From positions 186,001 to 250,000 of the forward strand of contig NZ_BAOS01000028.1 of NCBI RefSeq assembly GCF_002443295.1: a DNA stretch of 64,000 nucleotides, read 5' to 3'. The stretch comes from Candidatus Scalindua japonica (GTDB taxonomy: Bacteria; Planctomycetota; Brocadiia; Brocadiales; Scalinduaceae). Both the position numbers and the translations under genes were made by a program. The notes under the pieces were generated by a model, which saw only the letters and a list, made by a program, of their open reading frames with translations, ran no database searches and had not been told where the DNA came from. Positions 6,460 to 64,000 of the stretch are shown here, piece after piece. Position 1 is the stretch's first letter; each line of letters opens with the position of its first letter.

Positions 6460-7221
6460 TTGACAGAAGAGACACATGGCAGTTCTAGTGGGGGTGTACC
6501 TGAGCTTCCTACATTTTTTGATTTGCTGCCTATAGATAAACATGCTGAAATATTCGGGCTTACACTTCACCAGCTGCTTCCGATTGTCATGTCAATGATG
6601 ATTATTGCGTTACTTGGTATTTTTTCAATGATTGCAACGAGTAATCTGAAGAAAATACCGGGAGGAGTGCAGGCAATTCTTGAGCTTTTAGTGGAAGCAC
6701 TTGACGGTTTTGTGAAATCAATTCTTGGGAAGATGTCAGATAAGTTTCTGCCTTTTGTAGGTACTCTATTCTTATATATTCTGATAATGAACCTCATAGG
6801 CCAGATTCCGTTGCTGCATTCTCCAACGACAAACTATAATACAACACTGGCGCTTACCTTACTGGTATTTGTTGCCACTCATTATTACGGACTCAAACAT
6901 AACGGGCCGGTAAAATACGTTAAGCACATGATGGGAGAGCCACGTTGGATGTCTCCAATGCTGTTTCCTCTGCATATTATATCAGAGTTCTTGACACGTC
7001 CGTTATCTCTTTCAATGCGTCTTTACGGGAATTTGATGGGAGGGCATACGGTTCTCTCGATATTTATAGGACTTTCTCCTTTATTACTTGGTTTGATTCC
7101 TATACCGATACATTTCCCGTTTGTTTTATTGGATTTACTATTAGCATCACTCCAAGCCTTTATTTTCGCGTTCTTGGCTAGTTTTTATATAGCGGGCTCA
7201 ATTGGAGAGAAACATTTATAA
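6460..7221 (+). CDS. atpB: F-type ATP synthase subunit a
   Basis: Membrane stator subunit carrying the ion half-channels opposite the c-ring. At 253 residues it is of usual size. The essential arginine is R187 in SMRLYGNLMGGH, and the C-terminal helix with LLASLQAFIFAFLASFYIAGS is diagnostic. It starts at TTG 6460 after an AAGAAGGAG ribosome site. Subunit c follows after 25 bases. Confidence 0.95.
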   Translation: MTEETHGSSSGGVPELPTFFDLLPIDKHAEIFGLTLHQLLPIVMSMMIIALLGIFSMIATSNLKKIPGGVQAILELLVEALDGFVKSILGKMSDKFLPFVGTLFLYILIMNLIGQIPLLHSPTTNYNTTLALTLLVFVATHYYGLKHNGPVKYVKHMMGEPRWMSPMLFPLHIISEFLTRPLSLSMRLYGNLMGGHTVLSIFIGLSPLLLGLIPIPIHFPFVLLDLLLASLQAFIFAFLASFYIAGSIGEKHL

Positions 7222-7246
7222 TTTTTAGAGAAGGGAGATTTCGAAA

Positions 7247-7510
7247 ATGATTTATTTTGCGTGTGTAGCAATTGCAATTGGTATGCTGGCTTTTGCCTCT
7301 TTTGGTTGTGGAATAGGCCAGGGGATTGCAGTCCATGGAGCTTCAACTTCAGTAGCAAGGCAGCCAGAGCTTTTTGGGAAGATTCAGATGCTTATGTTCA
7401 TCGGTCTGGGATTTATTGAAGCGCTGGCAATCTACTCGCTTGTTCTGTCGTTTATTCTGCTCGGGAAATTGCCGGATGCAGCTTCAGTTTTAAAAGTGCT
7501 TTCACATTAA
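7247..7510 (+). CDS. atpE: F-type ATP synthase subunit c
   Basis: This 87-residue hairpin protein is the rotor ring subunit. Helix 1 carries GCGIGQG (Q25), the loop is ARQPE (R38-E41), and helix 2 carries the ion-binding carboxylate E58 in FIEALAIY. Sodium-type rings usually have a serine or threonine right after the glutamate; here it is alanine, as in proton-type cyanobacterial and plastid rings, so proton coupling is likely. A 320-base gap with a strong hairpin follows instead of subunit b. Confidence 0.95.
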   Translation: MIYFACVAIAIGMLAFASFGCGIGQGIAVHGASTSVARQPELFGKIQMLMFIGLGFIEALAIYSLVLSFILLGKLPDAASVLKVLSH

Positions 7511-7584
7511 TATTATTGCTAGTGTGTCAAGGTACCCCTTACAATAATTTCTAGTGTGGCGAGCCGTATTGATATGCCTTAACT

Positions 7585-7620
7585 ATTAATACTGTTCAAT
7601 TGCTGAATTAAGGTATTAAT
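7585..7620 (+). other. Stem-loop between atpE and atpF
   Basis: Perfect 8-base arms ATTAATAC (7585-7592) and GTATTAAT (7613-7620) enclose a second small stem (TTCA/TGAA). It lies in the unusually long 323-base gap (7511-7833) inside the operon. No U-tract follows. It may be an RNA processing or stability element that favours subunit c, but this is inference. A weaker TACTGAC/GTCAGTA pair lies near 7764-7803. No ORF is evident in the gap. Confidence 0.5.
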
Positions 7621-7833
7621 GATTTTCTGGTAAGTCATGTGTTGTGCCAGATCATAAAAATCATCTTAAGGGTTCCATCTGAACAAATTACAGAAAAGGC
7701 CTTTAAAGTTAAAAATATGTAAGGCTTTCTGCACTAGGATTATTAACATATATAAGTAATAGGTACTGACAAAAAATATTTTTGATTAATGACTTGGTCA
7801 GTAAACTAAAAGCGGTAACATGGGAGAATAAAT

Positions 7834-8340
7834 GTGGGGAATTTATTAGAAGCATTAGGCGTTAATTTTAAAATGGTCTTCATCCAGGCAGTAGGTTTTC
7901 TGATACTATTGGTGTTGATGAAGAAATTTCTCTTCGGCAGGATTAAAGAAATAATAAAATCCAGGGCTGATGAGATAAAAGACACGTACAAGAAAAGTGA
8001 AGATGACAGGGCAGAAGCTGCAAGACTTAAGGAAGAGTATCAGCAGAAAGCGGTTAAGGCTGATGAGGCTGCTGAGGCAAAGATTCAGGCTGCAGTAGAT
8101 AAGGCGAAGGACGTTGGTGGCAAAATGTTGGAAGAGGCACATCAAGCTGTCGCAGATGAAAAAGCCAAAGCCCACAAGAATATCGATATGGAAAGAAAGA
8201 AGGCGCTGGCAGAAGTCAGAAATCAGGTTGTGGATTTGACAATTCTTTCAACTTCCAGATTGATCAAACAGTCGACAAAACGTGAAACAGCAGAAAAATT
8301 AGTGGATGATGTTATTAAGGGAGTGGGGGCGCTGTCTTGA
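7834..8340 (+). CDS. atpF: F-type ATP synthase subunit b
   Basis: This 168-residue peripheral stalk subunit has one N-terminal membrane helix (about 10-28), then a long charged, alanine-rich coiled coil. The start is GTG at 7834 with GGGAGA 6-7 bases upstream; the overlapping ATG frame hits a stop at once. Its last codons overlap the start of atpH. Confidence 0.93.
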   Translation: MGNLLEALGVNFKMVFIQAVGFLILLVLMKKFLFGRIKEIIKSRADEIKDTYKKSEDDRAEAARLKEEYQQKAVKADEAAEAKIQAAVDKAKDVGGKMLEEAHQAVADEKAKAHKNIDMERKKALAEVRNQVVDLTILSTSRLIKQSTKRETAEKLVDDVIKGVGALS

Positions 8341-52464: not shown

Positions 52465-53220
52465 ATGTCTAAATTATTAATCACTATTCTCTGCTCCTGT
52501 CTCCTCTTTGCGGGATGTATAACGTCACAGACTTCAACAGGAAGCCACCATGAACGGGTCTCCCGTGATATAGCAGAAATACTCGCTAAGGCGGAACAGG
52601 ACGCTTCTATCGGAGAGAACATCAGGGTAACAGTAAATCTTCTGACCACAAGTGTGACAGATTCTTTTGCTGTCGGTGGACTTATGCAGCGAGTATATGG
52701 AGATGTCACTGTAACTAGCCGCTCTGAAGCCTTTGCTCAATCAGGCTTACAGATAAGTGTAGCAGGAGAAGATTTTAGCGCTCAACTTGACATTGCAAAG
52801 CAGAAGCTTAAGTCCTCTCAAGATTCCGAACTTTTCCTGGTACTTGCCGATGGTGCGACCGGTTCAATAAACATCGGGAAGGAAATTACTGTGCCTCGGT
52901 TTTACTACTTTAACAGATGGTATAGTGGTATAAATTACGAATTCAGGAAGGCTGGCAGGTCGCTGCAAGTGACTGCCAGAAAGCTTCCTTCCGGTCTGAT
53001 TGAAATGGAGTTGACTCCCGTCTTCTCCAGGTTTTTAAGTGATGGCGGAGACCTTGAAATGACTGAACTCACAACAACAGTAACTGCACGGCCTGGTCAG
53101 GTAGTGGTGATAGGCGGTGATACTTCTTCAGGTGAAAATGTAGCCAATGCTCTGTTGGGTTACCGTAAGGAGGGTGAGATGAAAGAGACCCTGATCACCG
53201 TTACGCCTCATATAAGATAA
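52465..53220 (+). CDS. Lipoprotein with secretin-like C-terminal domain
   Basis: From the ATG at 52465 the protein is 251 residues. A lipoprotein signal ends LLFAGC (C18). The C-terminal 90 residues resemble the secretin homology region: TTVTARPGQVVVIGG, then LLGYRKEGEMKETLITVTPHI, like the 'T.v.v.dGqtvviGGL...LG...r...k.eLlI.vTPhI' of PilQ/GspD. It is much shorter than a true secretin and lacks obvious N-domains, so it may be an accessory or degenerate secretin-like protein. It occurs near an ExeA-like ATPase and a TPR protein. Confidence 0.72.
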   Translation: MSKLLITILCSCLLFAGCITSQTSTGSHHERVSRDIAEILAKAEQDASIGENIRVTVNLLTTSVTDSFAVGGLMQRVYGDVTVTSRSEAFAQSGLQISVAGEDFSAQLDIAKQKLKSSQDSELFLVLADGATGSINIGKEITVPRFYYFNRWYSGINYEFRKAGRSLQVTARKLPSGLIEMELTPVFSRFLSDGGDLEMTELTTTVTARPGQVVVIGGDTSSGENVANALLGYRKEGEMKETLITVTPHIR

Positions 53221-53316
53221 GGCGGACTATTGTTCTGTAATAGATAAAAGTGCATAAGGTTATCGAACAGATACGGTGTAAACAGATTTCTTCCCATCTT
53301 CAGGCTCCTGTTTCCC

Positions 53317-53337
53317 GAACAACCTGGGTGGTTGTTC
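53317..53337. terminator. Hairpin between convergent genes
   Basis: GAACAACC / GGTTGTTC, perfect 8-base arms with a 5-base loop, between the secretin-like gene and the M23 peptidase gene. Likely a shared transcription end, though no strong U-tract is present on either strand. Confidence 0.5.
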
Positions 53338-53362
53338 ATTGAAGATAGCTTCCCACCGGGTA

Positions 53363-53941
53363 TTAGATATACTTCAGAGGATTACAAAGAGTTATATATC
53401 GGGAGTTCCCTATTGATTCCCAATTGAGTTGATTACAGGGTAAAGATTCCGGGATCCATGCCATTGTGATGTGGATGTGTGGATGGATCCTGCTATTTTC
53501 TGATGTTGCCGCAACCTCTGCAATGATATCTCCTTCATATACTCTTTTTCCCAAATCCTGGTTATTTCCTGGTTTAGTATGCCCGTAAACAGTGTGCAGT
53601 GTCTTTCCGCTTTTGTCTTTAAAGCTATGTTTTATATATATTGATTTTCCCAGAAAATCATCGTGGATGTAGACTATATCTCCGGTATACATTACCGGGA
53701 TTTTTGTCCCATTGCCAACATGACGGACCTGTCCTGTCTTGTCTCTGTAATAGCAGAAGTCTATTCCTTCATGAGGTGCAGGTCTAAGCCCATTATTCTT
53801 CCACCATGCTTCGGTATCCTGGAATAGCATTCCGGGATAAAAGACCCACTCCTTGAATTCGTATATGTGGAAACCGTTATTATGTCTTAAAAAAGATGTT
53901 GCGAATGTTGATTCTGGTATCTTATTTTCTTTAGATTTCAT
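53363..53941 (-). CDS. M23-family metallopeptidase-like protein without signal peptide
   Basis: This 192-residue protein has the LytM/M23 zinc site: H57 and D61 in PHEGIDF, and H155-x-H157 in IHPHIHITMAW, with LHTVYGHTK near 115-123. M23 enzymes cut peptidoglycan cross-links. Unusually, no signal peptide is visible in the first 40 residues, and the domain fills nearly the whole protein, so a non-cell-wall or cytoplasmic role is possible. Confidence 0.8.
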   Translation of the reverse strand: MKSKENKIPESTFATSFLRHNNGFHIYEFKEWVFYPGMLFQDTEAWWKNNGLRPAPHEGIDFCYYRDKTGQVRHVGNGTKIPVMYTGDIVYIHDDFLGKSIYIKHSFKDKSGKTLHTVYGHTKPGNNQDLGKRVYEGDIIAEVAATSENSRIHPHIHITMAWIPESLPCNQLNWESIGNSRYITLCNPLKYI

Positions 53942-54088
53942 GGAAATTAATCAGAAAGGAAGTTTTGATAAACAGGAAGGCTTTTGTCCATCTTTATCGA
54001 ACAGAATGTTCGGACTGGTAGCCGCATCCATAAGATTGTGCAATTTCCGACAAATCCACCTATACTAACCGGAAAATAAAAATGATTG

Positions 54089-54655
54089 TTAAAAGAAGGG
54101 ATTGCTGTTTTTTTCGATCCCGACCGTAGTCATAGGGCCGTGGGCAGGAAATACAAGAGTCTCATCCGGCAGCGTAAAGATACGTTCTCGGACATGCTTG
54201 ATCTGGCATTTTGCCGCTTTGGTAGAACCGGTTCCACCAATCGAACCGCACATGAGAGCGTCTCCCGTAAATACGCATCCGTGTCCATAAAATGCAATTC
54301 CATGCGGGGTATGACCCTGTATGGAGATAGCCTGGAATTTTAAGTTGCCGACTTTGATTATTTCGGCTCCCTGTAACTGGTGTTCTGCGCCCTGGACTTC
54401 TCCATGGCCAGCATAGCTCTGGGTTTTATAACGGCTGTTGAAATCCGGCAGCCCTTCGGTATGATCCCAATGACCGTGTGTAAAAAAAAGAAATTTGAGC
54501 TGTATTTTCTGATCCTGCATAAAATCATCGATTTCGGTACAGAAACCGCCCGGATCAATAAATACTCCGGTTCTGGTTTCAGGATCAGCTATGAGAAAGC
54601 CGTTGATTCCGTAACTCCCCACGGTAAATCTTTTGAATATGAAGTTGGTCATCAT
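54089..54655 (-). CDS. MBL-fold metal-dependent hydrolase (glyoxalase II-like)
   Basis: A 188-residue metallo-beta-lactamase-fold enzyme. The metal motif THGHWDH gives H60, H62, D64 and H65; further ligands are in GHTPHGIAFY (histidine) and FTGDALMCGSIG (aspartate), with a terminal FPAHGPMTTVG histidine. The compact size and motif spacing fit the glyoxalase II/YcbL group. Substrate unknown. Confidence 0.9.
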   Translation of the reverse strand: MMTNFIFKRFTVGSYGINGFLIADPETRTGVFIDPGGFCTEIDDFMQDQKIQLKFLFFTHGHWDHTEGLPDFNSRYKTQSYAGHGEVQGAEHQLQGAEIIKVGNLKFQAISIQGHTPHGIAFYGHGCVFTGDALMCGSIGGTGSTKAAKCQIKHVRERIFTLPDETLVFPAHGPMTTVGIEKNSNPFF

Positions 54656-54779
54656 TGTGCTGGTTTTTTTGTTTATATTTGTTAAAGGTTTCTAAGTTAC
54701 TCGCAATTGTGGAGGGTAGGAAGCCCTCCCTGCAAAAATATTATATTTTTTTCACTGGGTTCCAGTTGAAAGAATACCT

Positions 54780-54798
54780 GTCCGCCCGGCAGGCGGAC
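54780..54798. repeat. Palindrome GTCCGCC-CGGCA-GGCGGAC
   Basis: Perfect 7-base arms in the intergenic gap. A member of the loose GC-rich palindromic repeat set in this window. Confidence 0.6.
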
Positions 54799-54876
54799 GA
54801 GATTGACAGTTTTTGGGTAAAAAATGGAATACATGCAAAAAGCTGACAGTACAACGTAACTATAATAAAAATATAC

Positions 54877-55542
54877 TTAATCATAACGGACCTCTTCCAG
54901 ATTGGCTGCCTGATGGATGTCGCTTTTAATCCACAGGGTTTCAATAAACCGGGCCTTATGAAATACCGCGTCGGCAAGGTTGCAGTCCTCAAAAGTACAG
55001 CGAATAAAAGTTGCCGCCCTGAAAATAGCTTTTTGCAAACGGCACTTTGTAAACTGAGTATCAATGAAAACGGCAGATGGAAAGCGGACAAAGAAGTAGT
55101 CTTCCTGTTCAAACCGGCAGGCTTGCCACCAGGTACCGCTAAAGGAAATTTCACTAAAACTGGATTCTCTGAGCCTGCAGTCGTGGAATGTAGATAAACC
55201 GAAGGTGCTTAATTTTCCTGCGGATTTCTCAAACCTGCATCCTGAAAAATGGTTCTCAGTAATAAAGGAATCCTGGATCTGTAAATTTCCCCAATTACAC
55301 TCCTGGTAATAGCCTCTATCACAAAGGGTTTGATCGATTGCTATATTCTGAAAGCGGGTATTCCGGGCTCTGATAAAACGGCTACGTCCATCCAGTAGCT
55401 TAATTGACTGAACAGTGCTGTCGATCAGGCACCTGCCGGACATATCTTCCCTTTTCAAATCCCTGCCGGGAAGAGTCTCGTGGATGAGTACTTTTCTTTT
55501 TGAATTTTTCTGCATATTTTTTTCTGTTTCCGGCTTATGCAT
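54877..55542 (-). CDS. Pentapeptide-repeat protein
   Basis: This 221-residue protein consists mainly of imperfect A(D/N)LXX-type pentapeptides (SRFIRARNTRFQNIAI ... CRLQKAIFRAATFIRCTFEDCNLADAVF), which fold into a right-handed quadrilateral beta-helix. Roles of the family range from DNA mimicry to unknown. A basic N-terminal 25 residues precedes the repeats. It is 21 bases downstream of the aldo/keto reductase gene and probably in the same transcript. Confidence 0.82.
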   Translation of the reverse strand: MHKPETEKNMQKNSKRKVLIHETLPGRDLKREDMSGRCLIDSTVQSIKLLDGRSRFIRARNTRFQNIAIDQTLCDRGYYQECNWGNLQIQDSFITENHFSGCRFEKSAGKLSTFGLSTFHDCRLRESSFSEISFSGTWWQACRFEQEDYFFVRFPSAVFIDTQFTKCRLQKAIFRAATFIRCTFEDCNLADAVFHKARFIETLWIKSDIHQAANLEEVRYD

Positions 55543-55563
55543 TCAATTTAAATGTTTCTTCTT

Positions 55564-56397
55564 CTAGCCGGTAATAGTTTCTATTAATTTTACATCCTCT
55601 TCCTTGAGTTCAAAGTCCATTGTCTGAAGGTCTTCTTTCATGTGTTGCTCACTGCTTGTGCCTGTAAGGGGCGTTATTCCTGCCTGTATGGAAAATCGGA
55701 AGACTACCTGTTCCGGGGTTTTCCCCAATTTTCTGGAAATTGACTGAACTTCAGGATTCCGAAGAACAAAGGGGTTTGCAGTTAATAGCGAAAAGCCTTC
55801 ATACAGAATTCGGTTTGTTTTGCAAAATTCCCTGACTTCCGAGTCCCATCCCCGATTCGCAAAGCATCTGTTCTGAACTACCATAGGTTTGACTTCCGCT
55901 TTTTCAGTCAAGAGCTCCAACTGTACAATATTTACATTACTGATACCAATGTATTTTACTTTTCCGGTTTTGTAGAAATCTTCAATGGCACTCCAAACCT
56001 CCCAGTCCTCATTTCCCAGGATTGTTTGAGAGTATGGGCCATGCAGGAGATAAGAATCCAGATAATCGGTATGCAGGTTTTTGAATGTGCTTTCAATAGA
56101 TTGTTTCACTTGTATGGTAAGGTTTGCAGAAGGGTCATAAGGGATTCTGTGGTCATGTCCGCCAACCGGGGTAAATTTTGACTGGAGAAACAAACCCTTA
56201 CGGTTAATCCCTTTATCAGCTAATTTCAATAATGCATCACCCACAAGTTGTTCCTGATAATGTCTGGGTTGATTAGCGGTATCAATGGCAGAAAACCCTG
56301 CAGTAACCGCCCTTTCGACAAGATCTGCTGTGGCGTCTTCTTTCCATGCGGTACCATAGATAAATGAAGGGTATTTGTTGCTGTTTTCAGTAGCCAT
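55564..56397 (-). CDS. Aldo/keto reductase
   Basis: A 277-residue NAD(P)H-dependent TIM-barrel oxidoreductase. The catalytic tetrad is visible: D39 (AIDTANQP), Y47 (RHYQEQ), K near 74 (LQSKFTP) and H near 118 (SYLLHGP). ITPLTGTSSEQHMKEDL forms part of the cofactor-binding end. The substrate is not predictable. The upstream region to 56588 is AT-rich and divergent from the siroheme gene. Confidence 0.9.
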   Translation of the reverse strand: MATENSNKYPSFIYGTAWKEDATADLVERAVTAGFSAIDTANQPRHYQEQLVGDALLKLADKGINRKGLFLQSKFTPVGGHDHRIPYDPSANLTIQVKQSIESTFKNLHTDYLDSYLLHGPYSQTILGNEDWEVWSAIEDFYKTGKVKYIGISNVNIVQLELLTEKAEVKPMVVQNRCFANRGWDSEVREFCKTNRILYEGFSLLTANPFVLRNPEVQSISRKLGKTPEQVVFRFSIQAGITPLTGTSSEQHMKEDLQTMDFELKEEDVKLIETITG

Positions 56398-56588
56398 CTT
56401 TTCTCCTTCCGAATTTTCTGATTATTACATTATTGCCTGAGTTGAACAATTCTTAACCAGAATATGCGGGGCTGTTTTTTAGACAACCTTTATCTCTTTT
56501 TTTATTTGGTTGCGATTCTGTCATACTACAGTTATATATAATATACAGAACAATTCAAGCAGGGATTTTAAAATAGAAGGTTTTATGC

Positions 56589-57212
56589 ATGTCAAAATAT
56601 TATCCAATACATCTGGATGTTAGAGGTAAAAAATGCGTAATTATCGGTGGCGGGAAGGTCGCGTACCGTAAAGCGTGTAAATTAAAAGAGTCTGGTGCTG
56701 ACGTTGTAGTGATCAGTCCCGAAGTCTGTTCTGAAATGGCTGGCGAAGAAGGGCTTATTCTGATTAAGAAAGAGTATGAAAAGGGTATTATAGATGGTGC
56801 TTTGCTGGTTATTGCCGCAACGGATAATGAGGCAGTTAATAAAAAAGTAACGCTGGATGCAGAGAAGAGGGGCATAATGATAAATGTGGTTGATTATCCT
56901 GAACGCTGCTCTTTTGTTGTTCCTTCAACAATAGAAAGGGGAGATCTCTGTATAAGTATTTCAACCGGAGGTGCAAGCCCTGCTGTTGCTAAGAGGATTA
57001 GAGAAGAACTGGAGGCGGTCTTTGGAAAAGAGTACGAGGAATACCTGGATTTGTTGACTAAAATGCGAAGCTTAGCTATGTCCACTGTAGAAGATGGTGC
57101 AAAACGCAGAAAAATACTCCAGCGTCTGGCTAAAAAAGATATTTTTGATATGGTGAAAGATCAGGGAGTTGAAAGTGTTGAGGTAAAAATGAGAGGAATT
57201 ATTTCTGGGTAA
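56589..57212 (+). CDS. Precorrin-2 dehydrogenase / sirohydrochlorin ferrochelatase
   Basis: This 207-residue Met8p/CysG-N-type enzyme converts precorrin-2 to sirohydrochlorin (NAD+-dependent) and may insert iron to give siroheme. The Rossmann loop is VIIGGGKVAYRKA; the catalytic aspartate region is NVVDYPERCSFVVPSTIERGDL; SISTGGASPAVAKRIREELE is the dimer signature. The next gene is a siroheme-type sulfite reductase, so it likely supplies that cofactor. The methyltransferase half (CysG-C) is not fused and must be elsewhere. Confidence 0.93.
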   Translation: MSKYYPIHLDVRGKKCVIIGGGKVAYRKACKLKESGADVVVISPEVCSEMAGEEGLILIKKEYEKGIIDGALLVIAATDNEAVNKKVTLDAEKRGIMINVVDYPERCSFVVPSTIERGDLCISISTGGASPAVAKRIREELEAVFGKEYEEYLDLLTKMRSLAMSTVEDGAKRRKILQRLAKKDIFDMVKDQGVESVEVKMRGIISG

Positions 57213-57477
57213 AATAAAGCTTGGATTATTGTAAAAGGATTTTTAGAATCAGGTTCTACGGTTTGCCGTGTTTAGTTAGCGTCTTTTTTTGTTTCGTTCT
57301 GGGAGGTTGTTTCGCCCACTATAACAAAACACGCTTTCTGGTTTTTACGATACAATCGTTTCTCTGTATACGAGAATTTTTCTGCTTGAAACAATTCTTT
57401 ATCAGTGATAACATGAAACCTCGCAAAAAATTAAGATTTTTTTATAAACTATACTATTTGTAAGGCTTAAGGAGCAT

Positions 57478-58371
57478 TTGATGTCTGAGAAGAAGAGTGC
57501 GGGAAGAGTTGATTTAAATGAATTGAAAACCGGTGGCTTTATTAAGCAGAACCAGAAAGACCTGTTTACCGTCCGTTTAAGAGTTCCGGGAGGAAGACTG
57601 GATGTCGATAAGATGGCCAAGATTGCGGCAGTTGCTAAAAAATATAGCAAAATGGGTTACTGTCACCTTAGCTTCAGGCAGTCGGTTGAAATAATTGGTG
57701 TGCATATAGATGATTTTGATGCCGCGGTAAAAGAGCTGGCCGCATTCGGCCAGCCAATAGCATCTTGTGGTCCCAGGATCCGTGTTCCGACAGCTTGTGG
57801 CGGCAACGAATATAACCCTAACGGTGTTATGGATGCACAGAAAAAGGCACTTGAGGTAGATGAAAAGCTTTTTGGTACAAACTGCCCCCATAAATTCAAA
57901 ATCTCATTTTCGGCATGTCCGATCGACTGTGCCAGAACAAGAGGAATGGATTTAGGGTTTCAAGGCGTTGTAGATCCGAATTATGAGGATGATCCGTGTA
58001 CGGGTTGTACTCTATGTGAAAAGGCGTGTCTGGAAGGAGCGATAATTTCGGATGAAGATGGAAAGCCGGTTTTTGATAGAGAAAAATGTGTATTTTGTGG
58101 CGATTGCATAAAGGCGTGTCCTACTGATGCGTGGACTCCAAAACGAAAAGGATGGGCCGTTCGCGCAGGAGGAAAACATGGAAGGCATCCAAGAAAGGCA
58201 GATAATATTATGCTGTTCCTGCCGGATGAAAAGGTGTTGGATTTTATCAGCAAGACGGTAGAGTGGTATAACGCGAATGGTAAAAGAGGGGAGAGGATCG
58301 GGACAACTTTTGACCGTGTCGGGGTAGAAAAATACAAAGAAGAAGTTGCGCATTCTTTTATCGAAAACTAA
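57478..58371 (+). CDS. Siroheme sulfite/nitrite-reductase-like protein with two ferredoxin clusters
   Basis: A 297-residue low-molecular-weight Dsr/Asr-type protein. A ferrodoxin-like N-terminal half (GYCHLSFRQSVEIIGV) leads to the siroheme region: C106 in TACGGNEYNPNG, C135, then FSAC146PIDC150. Two [4Fe-4S] clusters follow at C173-x2-C-x2-C-x3-C183 and C203-x2-C-x2-C-x3-C213. The usual C-x5-C partner of C106 is not a cysteine (N112), perhaps a subfamily trait. It likely reduces sulfite or a related oxyanion. AAGGAG precedes the ATG. It heads a run with DsrE, JAMM and TusA genes. Confidence 0.85.
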   Translation: MMSEKKSAGRVDLNELKTGGFIKQNQKDLFTVRLRVPGGRLDVDKMAKIAAVAKKYSKMGYCHLSFRQSVEIIGVHIDDFDAAVKELAAFGQPIASCGPRIRVPTACGGNEYNPNGVMDAQKKALEVDEKLFGTNCPHKFKISFSACPIDCARTRGMDLGFQGVVDPNYEDDPCTGCTLCEKACLEGAIISDEDGKPVFDREKCVFCGDCIKACPTDAWTPKRKGWAVRAGGKHGRHPRKADNIMLFLPDEKVLDFISKTVEWYNANGKRGERIGTTFDRVGVEKYKEEVAHSFIEN

Positions 58372-58788
58372 ATGAAAGAGAAAAAATTTATACTATTTCT
58401 GCATACTGGCAATTATGAAAAGCTATATCAGGCGGTGATGCTCGCTATAACTGCCGCTTCTATGGGGAGTAAAGTTTACATCTTTTTATTCTTCTGGGCT
58501 TTAAAGAAATTTGCGACAGATAAGATAGATGTTATCGATTTTCCTGAAGGGATGAGTGATGAAGACAGGCATCTGTTAGCGTCTGTACCGCAGGGACAGT
58601 CAGATATGCTGAAAGGGTTATTGAGTGAAGTTGGCCAGATGGGGAATCTGGAAATTTATGCATGCAGCGGTGCAGTAAAATTAATGGGATTGGACGAAGA
58701 GCTGGTAAAAAGCAAGGTCGATGATATTTTAGGATTACCGACGATGCTGAAAATGACTGAAGGCGCTGAAACTCAGTTGTTTATTTAA
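58372..58788 (+). CDS. DsrE/DsrF-like sulfur-transfer protein
   Basis: A 138-residue single-domain protein of the DsrE/F/peroxiredoxin-like fold (FILFLHTGNYEKLYQAVMLAITAASMGSKVYIFLFF). A conserved-position cysteine C98 lies in EIYACSGAVKLMGL and could carry a persulfide. Its ATG follows the stop of the sulfite reductase gene with no gap, so the two are coupled. It would pass sulfur between partners such as TusA (inference from family). Confidence 0.85.
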   Translation: MKEKKFILFLHTGNYEKLYQAVMLAITAASMGSKVYIFLFFWALKKFATDKIDVIDFPEGMSDEDRHLLASVPQGQSDMLKGLLSEVGQMGNLEIYACSGAVKLMGLDEELVKSKVDDILGLPTMLKMTEGAETQLFI

Positions 58789-58821
58789 CGTTGTCAGTAG
58801 GCTGATATTTTAAAGGTAATT

Positions 58822-59493
58822 GTGATTCATATTAATCAGCATTTAGTCAACAGGATGCTAAAAGAGGCAAAAACTGCCTACCCTCATGAATGTTGCGGTT
58901 TGCTTGTTGGTACAATTAGAGATTCCGAGAAAACAGTACATGAGGTTTATCCGGTTGAAAATAAGAATAAGGTAAGGGCCGCTGATCGGTATGAAATAGA
59001 CCCTATAGAGTTTGATAGAATAGATCGGGAAGCTACAAAAAAAGGATGGAATATAACGGGTATCTATCATTCGCATCCTGATCACCCGGCTGAGCCTTCT
59101 GCGTTTGATAAAGAATGTGCGTGTGTATGGACTGAGTATTCATATATTATCATATCCGTTAAGGACGGTGTGGATGACGAATTGAGGTGTTGGCGCTTTG
59201 ATTCCGTAAAGCAGGATATTGAAGAGGTAGAGGTGAAGATAAACAGGCGCGACTTTATCATAGGCATGTCGTTTATCGCATTCAGCTTTGTCGTTTATTT
59301 CAGTTTGTTCCTCATTCCGCTTTTTCCTTTATCAAAGAAATCAATGGTAGGCGCCGCAACTATAGGCTATCTGTTTAACTGGTGTTTGACCGGGATAGGT
59401 GTGTTTTTTGCAGGTAAAGAAGGCTATGCGCTTTTGATGGAAAAATTTTTAAAAGGTTTTTTTAGAAAAATGATAGGTAAAAAAGAAAAATGA
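58822..59493 (+). CDS. JAMM (Mov34/MPN) metallopeptidase domain fused to a membrane anchor
   Basis: This 223-residue protein has an N-terminal JAB/JAMM domain with the complete zinc site: E23 (PHECCGLLVG), H83-S-H85 and S93-x2-D96 (HSHPDHPAEPSAFD). A second part (about 145-205) holds two hydrophobic helices and a basic tail. Bacterial JAMM peptidases trim ubiquitin-like sulfur carriers (ThiS/CysO/HcyS types), so a sulfur role fits, but no such carrier gene is visible here. Start GTG at 58822 with AAAGG upstream. It overlaps tusA by 4 bases. Confidence 0.88.
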   Translation: MIHINQHLVNRMLKEAKTAYPHECCGLLVGTIRDSEKTVHEVYPVENKNKVRAADRYEIDPIEFDRIDREATKKGWNITGIYHSHPDHPAEPSAFDKECACVWTEYSYIIISVKDGVDDELRCWRFDSVKQDIEEVEVKINRRDFIIGMSFIAFSFVVYFSLFLIPLFPLSKKSMVGAATIGYLFNWCLTGIGVFFAGKEGYALLMEKFLKGFFRKMIGKKEK

Positions 59494-59729
59494 GTGAAAC
59501 CGATGCAGATGAAAAAATTGATTTAAGAGGGGTTCTTTGCCCGATTAATTTTGTTAAGACAAAATTAAAGCTGGAGATGATGGAAGGTGGACAAATTCTG
59601 GAAATAGCCCTGGATGATGGAGAGCCGATGAGAAACGTCCCGCGAAGTGTAAAAGAGGAGGGACACAAGGTTGTGAAGGTTGAGAAGGTCGATGACGGAT
59701 ACAAGATATTTGTAGAAAAAAGCACTTAA
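59490..59729 (+). CDS. tusA: TusA-family sulfur carrier
   Basis: This 79-residue protein has the TusA/SirA fold: IDLRGVLCPINFVKTKLKLE, with the persulfide-carrying cysteine C17 in a CPxN (usually CPxP) motif, and the later GGQILEIALDDGEP. It relays sulfur to acceptors. It overlaps the JAMM gene (ATGA) and closes the sulfur operon. Confidence 0.88.
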   Translation: MSETDADEKIDLRGVLCPINFVKTKLKLEMMEGGQILEIALDDGEPMRNVPRSVKEEGHKVVKVEKVDDGYKIFVEKST

Positions 59730-60137
59730 TTTTTTTATGCTGATTTTGTCGACAGGTGAAAATCAGTTGCGCTTATTAATTCATCTTTTTTTTATAAGTT
59801 AATTAAACATGGTTTGTTTGTCACCAGAGAATTTACGATCATTATATGTATCTTTAAAAAAAAGAGTTGGGTGCTTTGTCTCTTTGTCTGTAACATAAAA
59901 TAATCTGCCTGAAAGTTGAGATTCGTTGAGCTTTTAAGACCTTTTGTTTAAAATTAAATGTTGCGTTTATGACGAATTATTGTTAGTATGTTCGCGTTTG
60001 AAAGTCGGTTGGTTTTTTCTGAAAGATTGTACTTATATTTTATAGTTCCCTGAATTACTGACTAGTTGTTATTGTCATGTGAATCTGAGGAAAATTAAAG
60101 TAGTTGAATTGTATCATCAATAATGGGGGTCTGAAAC
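59730..60137. other. Intergenic region before the Rieske operon
   Basis: About 400 AT-rich bases separating the sulfur operon from the bc-type operon. It has T-rich runs (59729-59800) that may end the sulfur transcript; no clear hairpin, ORF or consensus promoter could be placed. Confidence 0.4.
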
Positions 60138-60650
60138 ATGGCTAGTGATGTAAAAGAAAAAGAAGCTTCCCGTGGTAATTTGTATACGTCCAAGAGAGAT
60201 TTTTTTACCTTGGCAGGCTGGGCAGCGTTTCTGGTAACCGGGCTTGTTTACACTTTGAAATTGTTTGGGCCAAAAAACATCGGTGGGTTTTTCTTTCCCA
60301 CGGTTCTTTTTGAGCCTTCTCCTGTCTTTTCTGTCGGGTTACCGATGGACTATGCACCAGGTACGGTAACAACGCTGAAGGCAAGGAAGGTTTTTATCAT
60401 TCGAGAAGGCAACAGTTTTAAGGCGATATCGGTAATATGTCAGCACCTTGGTTGTGCGGTGCATTGGACAAAGGATAAGAATATATTCGAATGTCCGTGT
60501 CACGGAAGTAAATACTATAAAAACGGAGTAAATTTTGCCGGACCGGCACCCAGGCCGTTATTCCATTATGAGGTTAGCCTTTCTGATGAAGGCAAGTTGG
60601 TTGTAAATACAGAGAAAATAGTACCTATAAATACTGAGTTGGTTGTTTAA
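60138..60650 (+). CDS. Rieske iron-sulfur protein of a bc-type complex
   Basis: This 170-residue protein has an N-terminal membrane anchor (about 23-42) and a Rieske [2Fe-2S] domain with C101-x-H103-x2-C106 (CQHLGC) and C119-x-C121-H122 (CPCHG). It takes electrons from quinol at the cytochrome b Qo site. The genes that follow encode the other parts of the complex. It is the first gene of the operon. Confidence 0.94.
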   Translation: MASDVKEKEASRGNLYTSKRDFFTLAGWAAFLVTGLVYTLKLFGPKNIGGFFFPTVLFEPSPVFSVGLPMDYAPGTVTTLKARKVFIIREGNSFKAISVICQHLGCAVHWTKDKNIFECPCHGSKYYKNGVNFAGPAPRPLFHYEVSLSDEGKLVVNTEKIVPINTELVV

Positions 60651-60696
60651 TTGTCTAAAGTTCGTGCTAATGTAAATTTTTGCGAAAGGCATGTAG

Positions 60697-62463
60697 ATGA
60701 GTCAGACAGAAGATTCTGGGCAGGGGACACGAGTTTCCCTTGAATTAGATTGGTTAAAAGAAAATATACGTTGTCAACATCGCTGTCCGGCACATATGGA
60801 TATTCCTGGTTACATACGCCTGATAAGTCAGGGTAAGTACGAGGACTCCTACAAATTAATGCTGGAAACTAACCCCTTTCCCACCGTTTGTGGATATGTT
60901 TGTCCGCGCCCCTGTGAGTCTAAGTGTAAACGTGGTGATTTTGACAAACCGGTATCAATAGATAACCTGAAAAGGTTTGTTACGGATTATATATATAAAA
61001 ACAGGATTAAAGTTCCTGCCCCCAGGATAGAAAAGAGAGCTGAAAAAATTGCTGTTATCGGTGCGGGTCCTGCCGGATTAACAGCAGCAAATGACCTTGC
61101 CGGGATGGGTTATCAGGTGACTGTTTTTGAAAAAGAGTCCAGGGTTGGGGGGATGATGATGTGGGCAATACCATCTTACAGGCTTCCGCGTGAGCAGATA
61201 ATGTTTGATGTGAGCAATATAGAGGCCAGGGGAGTTGAGATTAAGTTAAATACGCATTTTGCAAGTCCCGATATGACGATATCAGGTCTTCTGGAAGGTG
61301 GATATAAAGCTGTTTTTATAGCTGTTGGTGCACAGAGAGGGCGGAAGCTTGAGGTTTCCGGAGAAGAGGGTACAGAGGGGGTCATGGATTGTCTTGATTT
61401 TCTAAAGGATGTGAGTGCTGGTGATTTGAAAAGCCCGGGTAAAACAGTAGCAGTGATTGGGGGTGGTAACTCAGCGGTGGATGCTGCGAGAACGGCTAAA
61501 AGGATAACGCCTGATGTTCACATCGTTTACAGAAGGACTAGAAATGAGATGCCGGCTCTTAAACATGAGATTGAAGAAGCGGAGCTTGAAGGCATCAGCT
61601 TTCATTATCTGGTGGCTCCTGTGAAAGTTCTTGTTGAAAATGGAAAGGCTAAGGGGCTTGAATGTGTAAAAATGGAATTGGGAGAGCCTGACAGTAGTGG
61701 GAGGCGAAGGCCTCAACCTATTCCTGATTCAGAATTTGTAATTGATACAGATTGTATAATAACGGCGCTTAGTCAAGAGGCAGATCTCGAATTTCTAGGT
61801 GATGACAGTGGGTTAGAGGCGACCAAATGGGGAACCCTTGTAGTGGATGATGGTCTGAAGACCGGTATAGAAGGTGTATTTGCGGGTGGTGATGTAGCTA
61901 TGGGGCCAAGTACTATTATCGAATGTATTGCTCAGGGGCATCTGGCGTCTAAATCAATCGATTGTTACATAAGAGGAGAGGGCTTTGAGGAGACCAAAGA
62001 TAAAGCCTGGGTTACTCTTATAGAAGGAGATTATATCCAGGAGAGGGAAAGTAATTTTGATAGTACGCCTCGCGAAGAAATGGCGACCATACCTAAGTCC
62101 AGAAGAGGTTCATTTGACCTGGTTGAGCTTGGCTTCATGGAATCGCAAGCCAGGTTAGAGGCTGATCGGTGCTTGAAGTGTGATCTGAGTATCAACGTTG
62201 TGGCTGATGATTGCATACTTTGTGGCAGGTGCAGTAGTGTTTGTCCTGTTGATGCACTGGAACAGGTTGATGCAGATACGGGAGGTGATCATAAGCCACA
62301 TGTTAGTAAAGACGGGGTTGTGATAAGGCATACAGATATGTGTATCAGATGTGGAAATTGCAAAGATTGTCCGGTGGATGCAATTAATATGAAGCGTGTA
62401 TTCTGGGAGCCTAATGAAGAAATTAATAAATCGCATAAAGCACAAGTAGTGAGTAGTGATTAG
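60697..62463 (+). CDS. GltD-like FAD/NAD(P)-oxidoreductase with C-terminal ferredoxin domain
   Basis: A 588-residue flavo-iron-sulfur protein. N-terminal cysteines (C26, C30, C65, C69, C73, C77) match the Fe-S domain of glutamate synthase small subunits. FAD binds at GAGPAGL (122-128) and NAD(P)H near residue 252 (VIGGGNSAVDAARTAKR). The C-terminus adds two [4Fe-4S] sites, CILCGRCSSVCPV and CIRCGNCKDCPV; the second is one residue shorter than the norm. It lies between Rieske and cytochrome b genes, so it probably couples quinone and NAD(P)H chemistry, as proposed for anammox bc complexes. Confidence 0.9.
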   Translation: MSQTEDSGQGTRVSLELDWLKENIRCQHRCPAHMDIPGYIRLISQGKYEDSYKLMLETNPFPTVCGYVCPRPCESKCKRGDFDKPVSIDNLKRFVTDYIYKNRIKVPAPRIEKRAEKIAVIGAGPAGLTAANDLAGMGYQVTVFEKESRVGGMMMWAIPSYRLPREQIMFDVSNIEARGVEIKLNTHFASPDMTISGLLEGGYKAVFIAVGAQRGRKLEVSGEEGTEGVMDCLDFLKDVSAGDLKSPGKTVAVIGGGNSAVDAARTAKRITPDVHIVYRRTRNEMPALKHEIEEAELEGISFHYLVAPVKVLVENGKAKGLECVKMELGEPDSSGRRRPQPIPDSEFVIDTDCIITALSQEADLEFLGDDSGLEATKWGTLVVDDGLKTGIEGVFAGGDVAMGPSTIIECIAQGHLASKSIDCYIRGEGFEETKDKAWVTLIEGDYIQERESNFDSTPREEMATIPKSRRGSFDLVELGFMESQARLEADRCLKCDLSINVVADDCILCGRCSSVCPVDALEQVDADTGGDHKPHVSKDGVVIRHTDMCIRCGNCKDCPVDAINMKRVFWEPNEEINKSHKAQVVSSD

Positions 62464-62521
62464 GGCGTTAGGATAGTGATGTGGGTTTGTTTATAAGTGA
62501 TATTTAGAAGGGGACGCTTAA

Positions 62522-63292
62522 ATGAATTTAATCTTATTTTTGATCAGGAAGCTTACAGAAACTGAGGTATGGAAATCTGTATTTCGCCATGGTTATAAGG
62601 ATACCCCCAGGAACAGGGCGCTTCAGACTATAAGTAATGTATGGTTGCATTTGCATCCTGTAAAGGTTCCAAAGCACGCTGTTAAGATTCGGTATACATG
62701 GTGTCTTGGCGGGCTGACATTCTTTATTTTCCTTTATTTAACAGTGACGGGTGTCCTGTTAATGTTTTATTATGTTCCGGATGTTAATCGGGCATATGCA
62801 GATATGATTGATCTGATGTATGTTGTCCCTCTGGGGAGGCTCTTGAGAACATCACATCGATGGGCAGGACATGCTATGGTCATAACAGTTTGCTTTCATA
62901 TGTTGAGGGTGTTTCTTACAGGTTCTTATAAGGCCCCGCGACAATTTAACTGGGTATTAGGTGTACTGTTATTGGTTTTGACCTTTCTGCTTAGTTTTAC
63001 CGGATACCTGTTGCCATGGGATCAGCTTGGATACTGGGCAATAATGGTTGGAACAAATATGGGCGCTGCAACCCCGGTTATGGGTTATCAGGGTCCTTTT
63101 GCTGATCTATTAGGTGTGAAGATTAATAACGATGTTCGTTTTGCTCTCCTGGGTGGTACGCAAATTGATGCTCCGTCATTACTGCGGGCATACGTGTGGC
63201 ATTGCATAGGAATACCAATAATAGCGGGAGCGTTGATGATCCTACATTTTTGGCGTGTTAGAAAAGACGGTGGTATTTCAGGGCCTCTATAA
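62522..63292 (+). CDS. Cytochrome b, N-terminal (b6-type) subunit
   Basis: A 256-residue quinol-oxidising diheme membrane protein with four core helices. Heme ligands are H112 and H126 (SHRWAGH...FHMLR) on one helix and H227 and H242 (VWHCIG...LHFWR) on another, the 14-residue b6-like spacing. PWDQLGYWA marks the Qo region. The split from subunit IV is as in b6f-type and many anaerobe bc complexes. It follows the flavoprotein gene by 58 bases. Confidence 0.94.
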   Translation: MNLILFLIRKLTETEVWKSVFRHGYKDTPRNRALQTISNVWLHLHPVKVPKHAVKIRYTWCLGGLTFFIFLYLTVTGVLLMFYYVPDVNRAYADMIDLMYVVPLGRLLRTSHRWAGHAMVITVCFHMLRVFLTGSYKAPRQFNWVLGVLLLVLTFLLSFTGYLLPWDQLGYWAIMVGTNMGAATPVMGYQGPFADLLGVKINNDVRFALLGGTQIDAPSLLRAYVWHCIGIPIIAGALMILHFWRVRKDGGISGPL

Positions 63293-63312
63293 ATAGTTGG
63301 GAGAATTTATTT

Positions 63313-64000
63313 ATGTCAAATCATGCAGATGCACAAGCTGCAAGCAATAAAAAAACGGAGAAGGTATTTTCTTGGCCGGATCTGGTTGCAAAGGAATTTA
63401 TAGCAGCAATTTTGGTAACTGTTGTCTTGCTTGTTTATTCTTATTATGTTGATGCTCCATTAAGGGAGCTCGCCAATCCCGGGGAACCTGAGAATCCGGC
63501 AAAGGCGCCTTGGTATTTTCTGGGTTTACAGGAAATACTTGTCTATTTTGATCCCTGGATTGCGGGAGTTGTGGTCCCCAGCATTATAATTGTTGGGTTG
63601 ATGGTAATTCCATATGTAGACGTAAATCCAAAAGGGAATGGCGGATACTGCTTCAGGGATAGAAAATTTGCAGTAACTGTTTTTATGTTCGGGTTTATTT
63701 TCTGGTATGTGCTTATAATAGTTGGTACATACATGAGGGGGCCGTTCTGGTCGTTCTTCTGGCCCTGGGAAACTTGGAGTTTTGATTTTCCAACTCCTCC
63801 ACCGTTAATAAATCTGCCTAACTGGTTGGGTGTTTTTGCTCTTTTAGTATATTTCGGATTCGGAATGCTGATTCCGGCAGTTGCCTTCTGGAAGTTTGCA
63901 AAACAGCTCGGTTTTATCAGGTACAACATTACTATGAGTCTGTTTTTGCTTATGATGGGAGTAATTGTAAAGATTGCCTTGAGGCTTATGTTTAATATTA
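63313..64000 (+). CDS. Cytochrome b, C-terminal (subunit IV-type) protein, partial
   Basis: The ATG at 63313 follows GGGAG; the frame stays open to the end of the window (229 codons), so the 3' end is cut off. After a polar N-terminus there is a membrane helix, then the Qo motif region PAKAPWYFLGLQEIL (PWY in place of PEWY), then YFDPWIAGVVVP and further helices. This is the subunit IV half of cytochrome b. Anammox relatives carry extra cytochrome c domains downstream, which cannot be seen here. Confidence 0.9.
   Translation, partial: MSNHADAQAASNKKTEKVFSWPDLVAKEFIAAILVTVVLLVYSYYVDAPLRELANPGEPENPAKAPWYFLGLQEILVYFDPWIAGVVVPSIIIVGLMVIPYVDVNPKGNGGYCFRDRKFAVTVFMFGFIFWYVLIIVGTYMRGPFWSFFWPWETWSFDFPTPPPLINLPNWLGVFALLVYFGFGMLIPAVAFWKFAKQLGFIRYNITMSLFLLMMGVIVKIALRLMFNI

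Follow-up and report, generated by a model that had tools for sequence, protein, structure and literature searches.

The 64,000-nucleotide stretch of Candidatus Scalindua japonica analysed here (contig NZ_BAOS01000028.1, positions 186,001 to 250,000; hereafter the window) contains a compact sulfur operon at positions 56589-59729, in which five open reading frames (ORFs) run on the plus strand. They code for a siroheme-synthesis protein (SirC), a siroheme sulfite reductase (Sir), a DsrE-family protein, a JAMM metallopeptidase and a TusA-family sulfur carrier. This operon probably supplies sulfite reduction, sulfur relay and the peptidase to a CysO-type protein-thiocarboxylate pathway of cysteine synthesis, the other genes of which are scattered over the genome of this anaerobic ammonium-oxidizing (anammox) bacterium.

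The five genes of the operon

The domains of the five proteins were assigned by Pfam and NCBIfam searches. The five-gene array had been described in an earlier note drawn up from the sequence alone, and both the array and its close junctions are real. Sir ends at 58371 and DsrE starts at 58372, DsrE and JAMM are spaced by 33 bp, and the start of TusA (59490) overlaps the end of JAMM (59493) in an ATGA. SirC and Sir are separated by approximately 265 bp, so that SirC can be regarded as linked to the operon but not tightly coupled. No RNA element was returned by an Rfam search of positions 53000-64000.

SirC (56589-57212, plus strand; TIGR01470, E 2.9e-45; PF13241 and PF14824) comprises only the N-terminal domain of CysG, of the precorrin-2 dehydrogenase/sirohydrochlorin ferrochelatase type, and domain searches detected no methyltransferase (SUMT) domain in it. 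The label of siroheme synthase that it had first received holds as to siroheme supply, but the protein is better named as the precorrin-2 dehydrogenase/ferrochelatase half. The position of SirC ahead of Sir is conserved in two anammox families and in a further genus.

Sir (57481-58371, plus strand) has the architecture of the Group III dissimilatory sulfite reductase-like proteins (Dsr-LP), that is, a single siroheme-[4Fe-4S] half into which two further [4Fe-4S] clusters are inserted (C173-C183 and C203-C213, conserved). Matches to PF01077, PF03460 and Fer4 bear out its earlier description as a siroheme reductase with two ferredoxin clusters. The best matches in the PDB are Fsr structures (7np8 and 7npa), the nearest part being the C-terminal half of Fsr. 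Residues R66, R101, K138 and K140, which bind sulfite, are invariant in 81 sequences. The siroheme-cluster motif (57796-57816, plus strand) is altered: it reads C106-GGNEY-N112 instead of C-x5-C, and departs from the C-x5-C ... C-x3-C pattern only at N112, the remaining motif cysteines being retained. Fsr has a cysteine at the position aligned with N112. The asparagine occurs in 81 of 81 sequences, as does an extra cysteine, C96, ten residues before the first motif cysteine; one of the two patterns used to scan for Sir, PTACGG[CN]E, overlaps part of the altered region, which makes the sample to some extent dependent on that region, although both N112 and C96 lie outside the pattern. The AlphaFold model of Sir (mean predicted local distance difference test score 71.6, below 50 for residues 95-115) is too poor in this loop for the ligand replacing the cluster cysteine to be located. 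At one relative locus, Sir contains an in-frame stop.

The DsrE protein (58372-58788, plus strand; DsrE/DrsE_2 family; PF13686, E 5.1e-10; PF02635) carries a cysteine in the motif YACSGA. It is present in Scalindua-type and Brocadiaceae-type operons and was detected neither in most loci of one anammox family (f3) nor in deltaproteobacterial operons; it is an anammox addition. The TusA/SirA-family protein (59490-59729, plus strand; PF01206, E 6.5e-23) contains the motif RGVxCPxNFVKT, which is common to anammox TusA and to TusA of deltaproteobacterial CysO operons.

The JAMM peptidase (58822-59493, plus strand; PF14464, E 3.6e-26) is the sole Prok-JAB protein of the Scalindua japonica genome. 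Its motif HxH-x7-S-x2-D is intact (H83, H85, S93, D96) and is completed by E23, all five catalytic residues being invariant across 16 aligned sequences. Behind the peptidase domain lie two hydrophobic segments; the first (from residue ~144) is the only one to exceed a strict hydropathy threshold. Only Scalindua-type members have this extension. It is missing from the 138-residue JAMM of another genus in their family, and the JAMMs of other anammox bacteria and of deltaproteobacteria, mostly of 138-170 residues, also lack it. The earlier note had called the peptidase a membrane protein and had placed its proposed route possibly at the membrane. The hydrophobic extension exists, but it is absent from most relatives, and a membrane location could apply at most to the Scalindua-type enzymes.

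Conservation in anammox bacteria and complete operons outside the order

The gene order was compared in 40 anammox loci, whose gene content was determined by tblastn. It recurs in these loci, complete or truncated, at approximately 40-97% protein identity, as SirC-Sir-DsrE-JAMM-TusA, as the same series with a CysM gene, or as a shortened version; an arrangement that recurs in this way is not due to chance. The Sir of the window shares 79-97% identity with the Sir of named Scalindua metagenome-assembled genomes (MAGs). In 39 of the 40 loci, JAMM is followed by TusA on the same strand. JAMM was found in 59 of the 62 genomes of the order and, among the 38 near-complete ones, in 38, together with the carrier described below in 37 and an E1-family protein in 38. 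In the Brocadiaceae type (Kuenenia, Brocadia, Jettenia) and in the other anammox families, the CysM-like gene (~315 residues) has DsrE (or Sir) on one side and JAMM on the other, and its best model is TIGR01138 (E 9e-112). Comparison of the neighbourhood across the Brocadiales and beyond, called for in the earlier note, thus shows a conserved arrangement and supports the view that these genes are a conserved sulfur-assimilation unit.

Outside the order, a scan of GTDB with the Sir alignment yielded 35 loci, mostly from deltaproteobacterial MAGs. In 17 of them the genes ThrC-Sir-TusA-carrier-CysM-JAMM-E1 are collinear over approximately 5-6.5 kb from the first to the last gene start. Many of the remaining loci are interrupted by contig ends, and some longer ones (e.g. 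L197, L211, L212 and L219) contain only the ThrC/Sir-TusA-carrier part. Since only Sir was used to pick the loci, finding the other genes linked to it counts as independent evidence. In locus L185, a gene for a NIL-domain protein stands between carrier and CysM, and this sole locus annotated beyond E1 continues with a radical-SAM-like gene, a Na/sulfate symporter, CysH and an inositol-phosphatase/CysQ-like gene. ORFs similar in size (~396-440 residues) to the radical-SAM-like gene (L185 13813-15003) follow E1 in many of these loci.

In the window, the sulfur operon is followed at 60138-63292 by genes for a Rieske protein, an NAD(P)-binding oxidoreductase with a ferredoxin domain and a cytochrome b, which probably form a bc1-type complex. 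Such genes often trail the sulfur operon in two anammox families as well.

Carrier, E1 and cysteine synthase genes of the genome

The earlier note had found no ubiquitin-like carrier and had advised a search for a ThiS/MoaD-like protein with a residue beyond GG elsewhere in the genome. The absence is true of the window and false of the genome. A search with PF02597 found two carriers. The first, on contig C5, is ThiS, which ends in GGG without a tail. The second is a CysO-like protein of ubiquitin fold encoded on the minus strand at C28:6492-6782 (PF02597 match at C28:6510), on the same contig as JAMM and 238 kb from it. It ends PAIAGG-RIAAS, i.e. with a tail of five residues past GG. Its best PDB matches are an actinobacterial protein of the ThiS/MoaD family (4n6e_B) and CysO of Mycobacterium tuberculosis (3dwg_C, E 3.4e-22; 3dwm). 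The gene lies just downstream of a ThrC-like (threonine-synthase-like) gene, the pair occupying positions 6492-8144 of locus L108 (C28).

The carrier ends were compared in 68 carriers, taken from relatives and from loci outside the order. The end of the body, PA[IV]AGG, is invariant, with an entropy of 0 bits over its last six residues, and what follows is almost random (3.6 bits at the first tail position) and varies in length from 0 to 24 residues, 63 of the 68 carriers having 1-24 residues after GG. A conserved body with a random tail is the pattern of a precursor tail that is cut by a peptidase reading the body rather than the tail. The JAMM of the window fits a pathway of the thiocarboxylate type, as had been suggested, and is predicted to trim the CysO-like carrier and to release cysteine.

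A stand-alone E1 of the MoeB type is encoded on another contig than JAMM (C4:95655-96455). This ORF of 268 residues consists of the MoeB/ThiF domain only; a domain search detected no rhodanese domain, which sets it apart from a strict MoeZR of the M. tuberculosis type. A homologue of the same type occurs at an identity of at least 75% in approximately 50 of the 62 genomes of the order, and the E1 proteins from the deltaproteobacterial operons share 61-64% identity with the Scalindua protein. Also on C4, a transposase/integrase-like gene pair (L124 1480-5949), identical to a pair on C13 (L135 10983-13005), adjoins a split cysteine-desulfurase-like gene beside a second E1-like gene.

Scalindua-type operons are devoid of CysM, and the corresponding genomes contain an unlinked CysM-like gene (on C13 in Scalindua japonica) that is approximately 52% identical to the operon form. 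Strict orthology of the two was not supported by a tree, in which the Scalindua-type genes form a clade of their own; the Scalindua gene is therefore called either a replaced gene or a relocated copy that has diverged strongly, and it is a candidate for the CysM acting in Scalindua. For the supply from sulfate, the genome holds two genes of the 3'-phosphoadenosine 5'-phosphosulfate (PAPS) reductase family, and sat, aprAB and a gene called 'fsr' were reported to have been gained at the origin of anammox (PMC9387917).

A probable CysO-type pathway and its alternatives

Homology, together with the gene content, conserved order, catalytic residues, tailed carrier and complete operon described above, suggests the following series of reactions. 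SirC would help to make siroheme and Sir would reduce sulfite to sulfide. JAMM would cut the variable C-terminal tail from the carrier (C28:6492-6782), exposing GlyGly, and the stand-alone E1 (C4, ~95.7 kb) would adenylate it. Sulfide, perhaps by way of TusA and DsrE, would then turn the adenylated carrier into a thiocarboxylate, with TusA possibly substituting for the rhodanese domain missing from E1. A CysM-type pyridoxal 5'-phosphate (PLP) enzyme would move the carrier-held sulfur to O-acetylserine or O-phosphoserine, and JAMM would finally cleave the carrier-cysteine adduct, freeing cysteine.

Several observations weigh against this reading. Carrier, E1 and CysM are not linked to the operon in Scalindua japonica, and the C13 CysM does not group with the operon form. 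In five of the 68 carriers nothing follows GG, which leaves nothing to trim. A CysK gene stands beside a CysE-like gene on C3, which would allow cysteine to be made from free sulfide. In the genome, rated 97% complete, no MoaD-like protein was detected besides the CysO-like carrier and ThiS, and the carrier could therefore also serve another purpose. Anammox bacteria should require molybdopterin enzymes. MoaE (PF02391) likewise went undetected in this assembly; the CysO-like carrier might also serve molybdenum cofactor synthesis, or MoaE might be missing from the assembly.

The same carrier machinery could have homocysteine as its main anammox product, as with HcyS in Wolinella, through the carrier-linked ThrC-like enzyme acting with O-phosphohomoserine or through an enzyme of the MetY type. 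The position of the ThrC-like gene, beside the carrier gene in Scalindua and first in the operon of deltaproteobacteria, would suit a second user of the thiocarboxylate, and the genome encodes a second ThrC-like protein and a Cys/Met PLP enzyme while HcyBio was not found in it. This alternative is nevertheless unlikely: the PLP gene within the operon of relatives is CysM-like, the ThrC-like protein scores above the TIGR00260 cut-off for threonine synthase, and the Cys/Met PLP gene is located on another contig. A composite scheme deserves an equally low probability. In it, a membrane-tethered JAMM would both trim the carrier and release cysteine at the membrane, Sir, with its asparagine in place of a cluster cysteine and C96 possibly compensating, would pass sulfide unfreed to TusA/DsrE and the carrier, and the ThrC-like protein would be a second acceptor making homocysteine from O-phosphohomoserine.

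It is distinctly improbable that the operon serves ordinary assimilation of free sulfide for CysK/CysM and that JAMM and TusA are unrelated to it, working on another ubiquitin-like modifier or in the sulfuration of tRNA or cofactors. The CysK-CysE pair and the unlinked carrier and E1 would agree with such a division, and TusA of other bacteria does serve tRNA thiolation and other relays, but the collinearity of JAMM, carrier, E1, CysM, TusA and Sir in 17 loci outside the order and the near-constant succession of JAMM and TusA in anammox loci speak against it. Sir is also hardly likely to be a nitrite reductase joining nitrogen assimilation to the sulfur relay. Nitrite and sulfite reductases with siroheme are not easily told apart, methanotrophic archaea have a divergent Fsr that is a nitrite reductase (PMC9295563), the PDB matches of Sir include plant nitrite reductases and its cluster motif is altered; all four sulfite-binding Arg/Lys are nevertheless invariant, and the operon elsewhere includes CysM and, in the one locus annotated further (L185), CysH and a sulfate transporter. 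An undescribed carrier-free route, with DsrE/TusA binding the sulfide and JAMM processing it at the membrane, would match a window with no carrier and the hydrophobic JAMM extension, but it can be dismissed as extremely improbable and was rejected here, since the genome encodes E1 and a CysO-like carrier whose tail can be removed, and most relatives lack the extension.

Comparison with known systems

With carrier and E1 encoded elsewhere in the genome, the favoured CysO-type pathway amounts to a known type of pathway with its genes rearranged, and not to a new route. The earlier proposal of an undescribed route is not supported, given these two genes, the CysM of the relatives' operons and the complete operons of many deltaproteobacterial MAGs; the gene combination had been predicted in 2006 (PMC1779556). 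No paper tying a protein-thiocarboxylate pathway to anammox bacteria was found in the open-licence literature. Anammox bacteria account for a large part of the nitrogen lost from the sea, and the present reading predicts that a ubiquitin-like protein carrier enables them to assimilate sulfur. The complete operons of deltaproteobacterial MAGs offer a compact gene set for expression and testing, and the changed cluster motif of Sir poses a specific bioinorganic question. The anammox 'fsr', which was called dissimilatory (PMC9387917), may be assimilatory if it is the same gene as Sir.

Sir resembles the Group III Dsr-LP and the C-terminal half of Fsr (PMC3448663) in its one siroheme domain, two extra [4Fe-4S] clusters and four sulfite-binding Arg/Lys, and differs from them by the invariant asparagine at the second cysteine of C-x5-C and by the extra cysteine. 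Contrary to Fsr, it is bacterial and has no F420 domain.

The chemistry of the pathway is itself known, from Mycobacterium and Wolinella. In the HcyS-HcyD-HcyF-MetY methionine pathway of Wolinella succinogenes, a sulfite reductase reportedly supplies sulfide, and a JAMM reportedly removes a C-terminal residue and later frees the amino acid. The 2011 work of Krishnamoorthy and Begley on this pathway is cited in PMC5764234. The roles of sulfite reductase and JAMM would be alike here, whereas the linked PLP enzyme of the relatives is CysM-like, no MetY being linked to the operon, and the predicted product is cysteine. The CysO-CysM-Mec+ system of M. tuberculosis (PMC3227635) shares a CysO-like carrier, a JAMM peptidase and, with the relatives, a CysM-type enzyme; in contrast to it, the anammox E1 has no rhodanese domain and TusA is found instead, a sulfite reductase is linked and the carriers are mostly tailed.

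A close precedent is row 4e of Table 1 of Iyer, Burroughs and Aravind (2006; PMC1779556), which lists ThiS/MoaD, JAB, an E1 without rhodanese, SirA, sulfite reductase and PAPS reductase and does not include anammox bacteria. The components are the same, with SirA/TusA replacing the rhodanese domain; the deltaproteobacterial operons match the row directly, its set lying in one neighbourhood in the 17 loci outside the order. All of its genes are in the Scalindua japonica genome, but they are dispersed, as carrier, E1 and CysM show, DsrE is added and JAMM bears a hydrophobic extension. The Scalindua version thus belongs, in dispersed and modified form, to the predicted row-4e or CysO-type class; its variant features are the hydrophobic JAMM extension, a reductase of the Group III Dsr-LP type with asparagine for cysteine, and the scattering of its genes.

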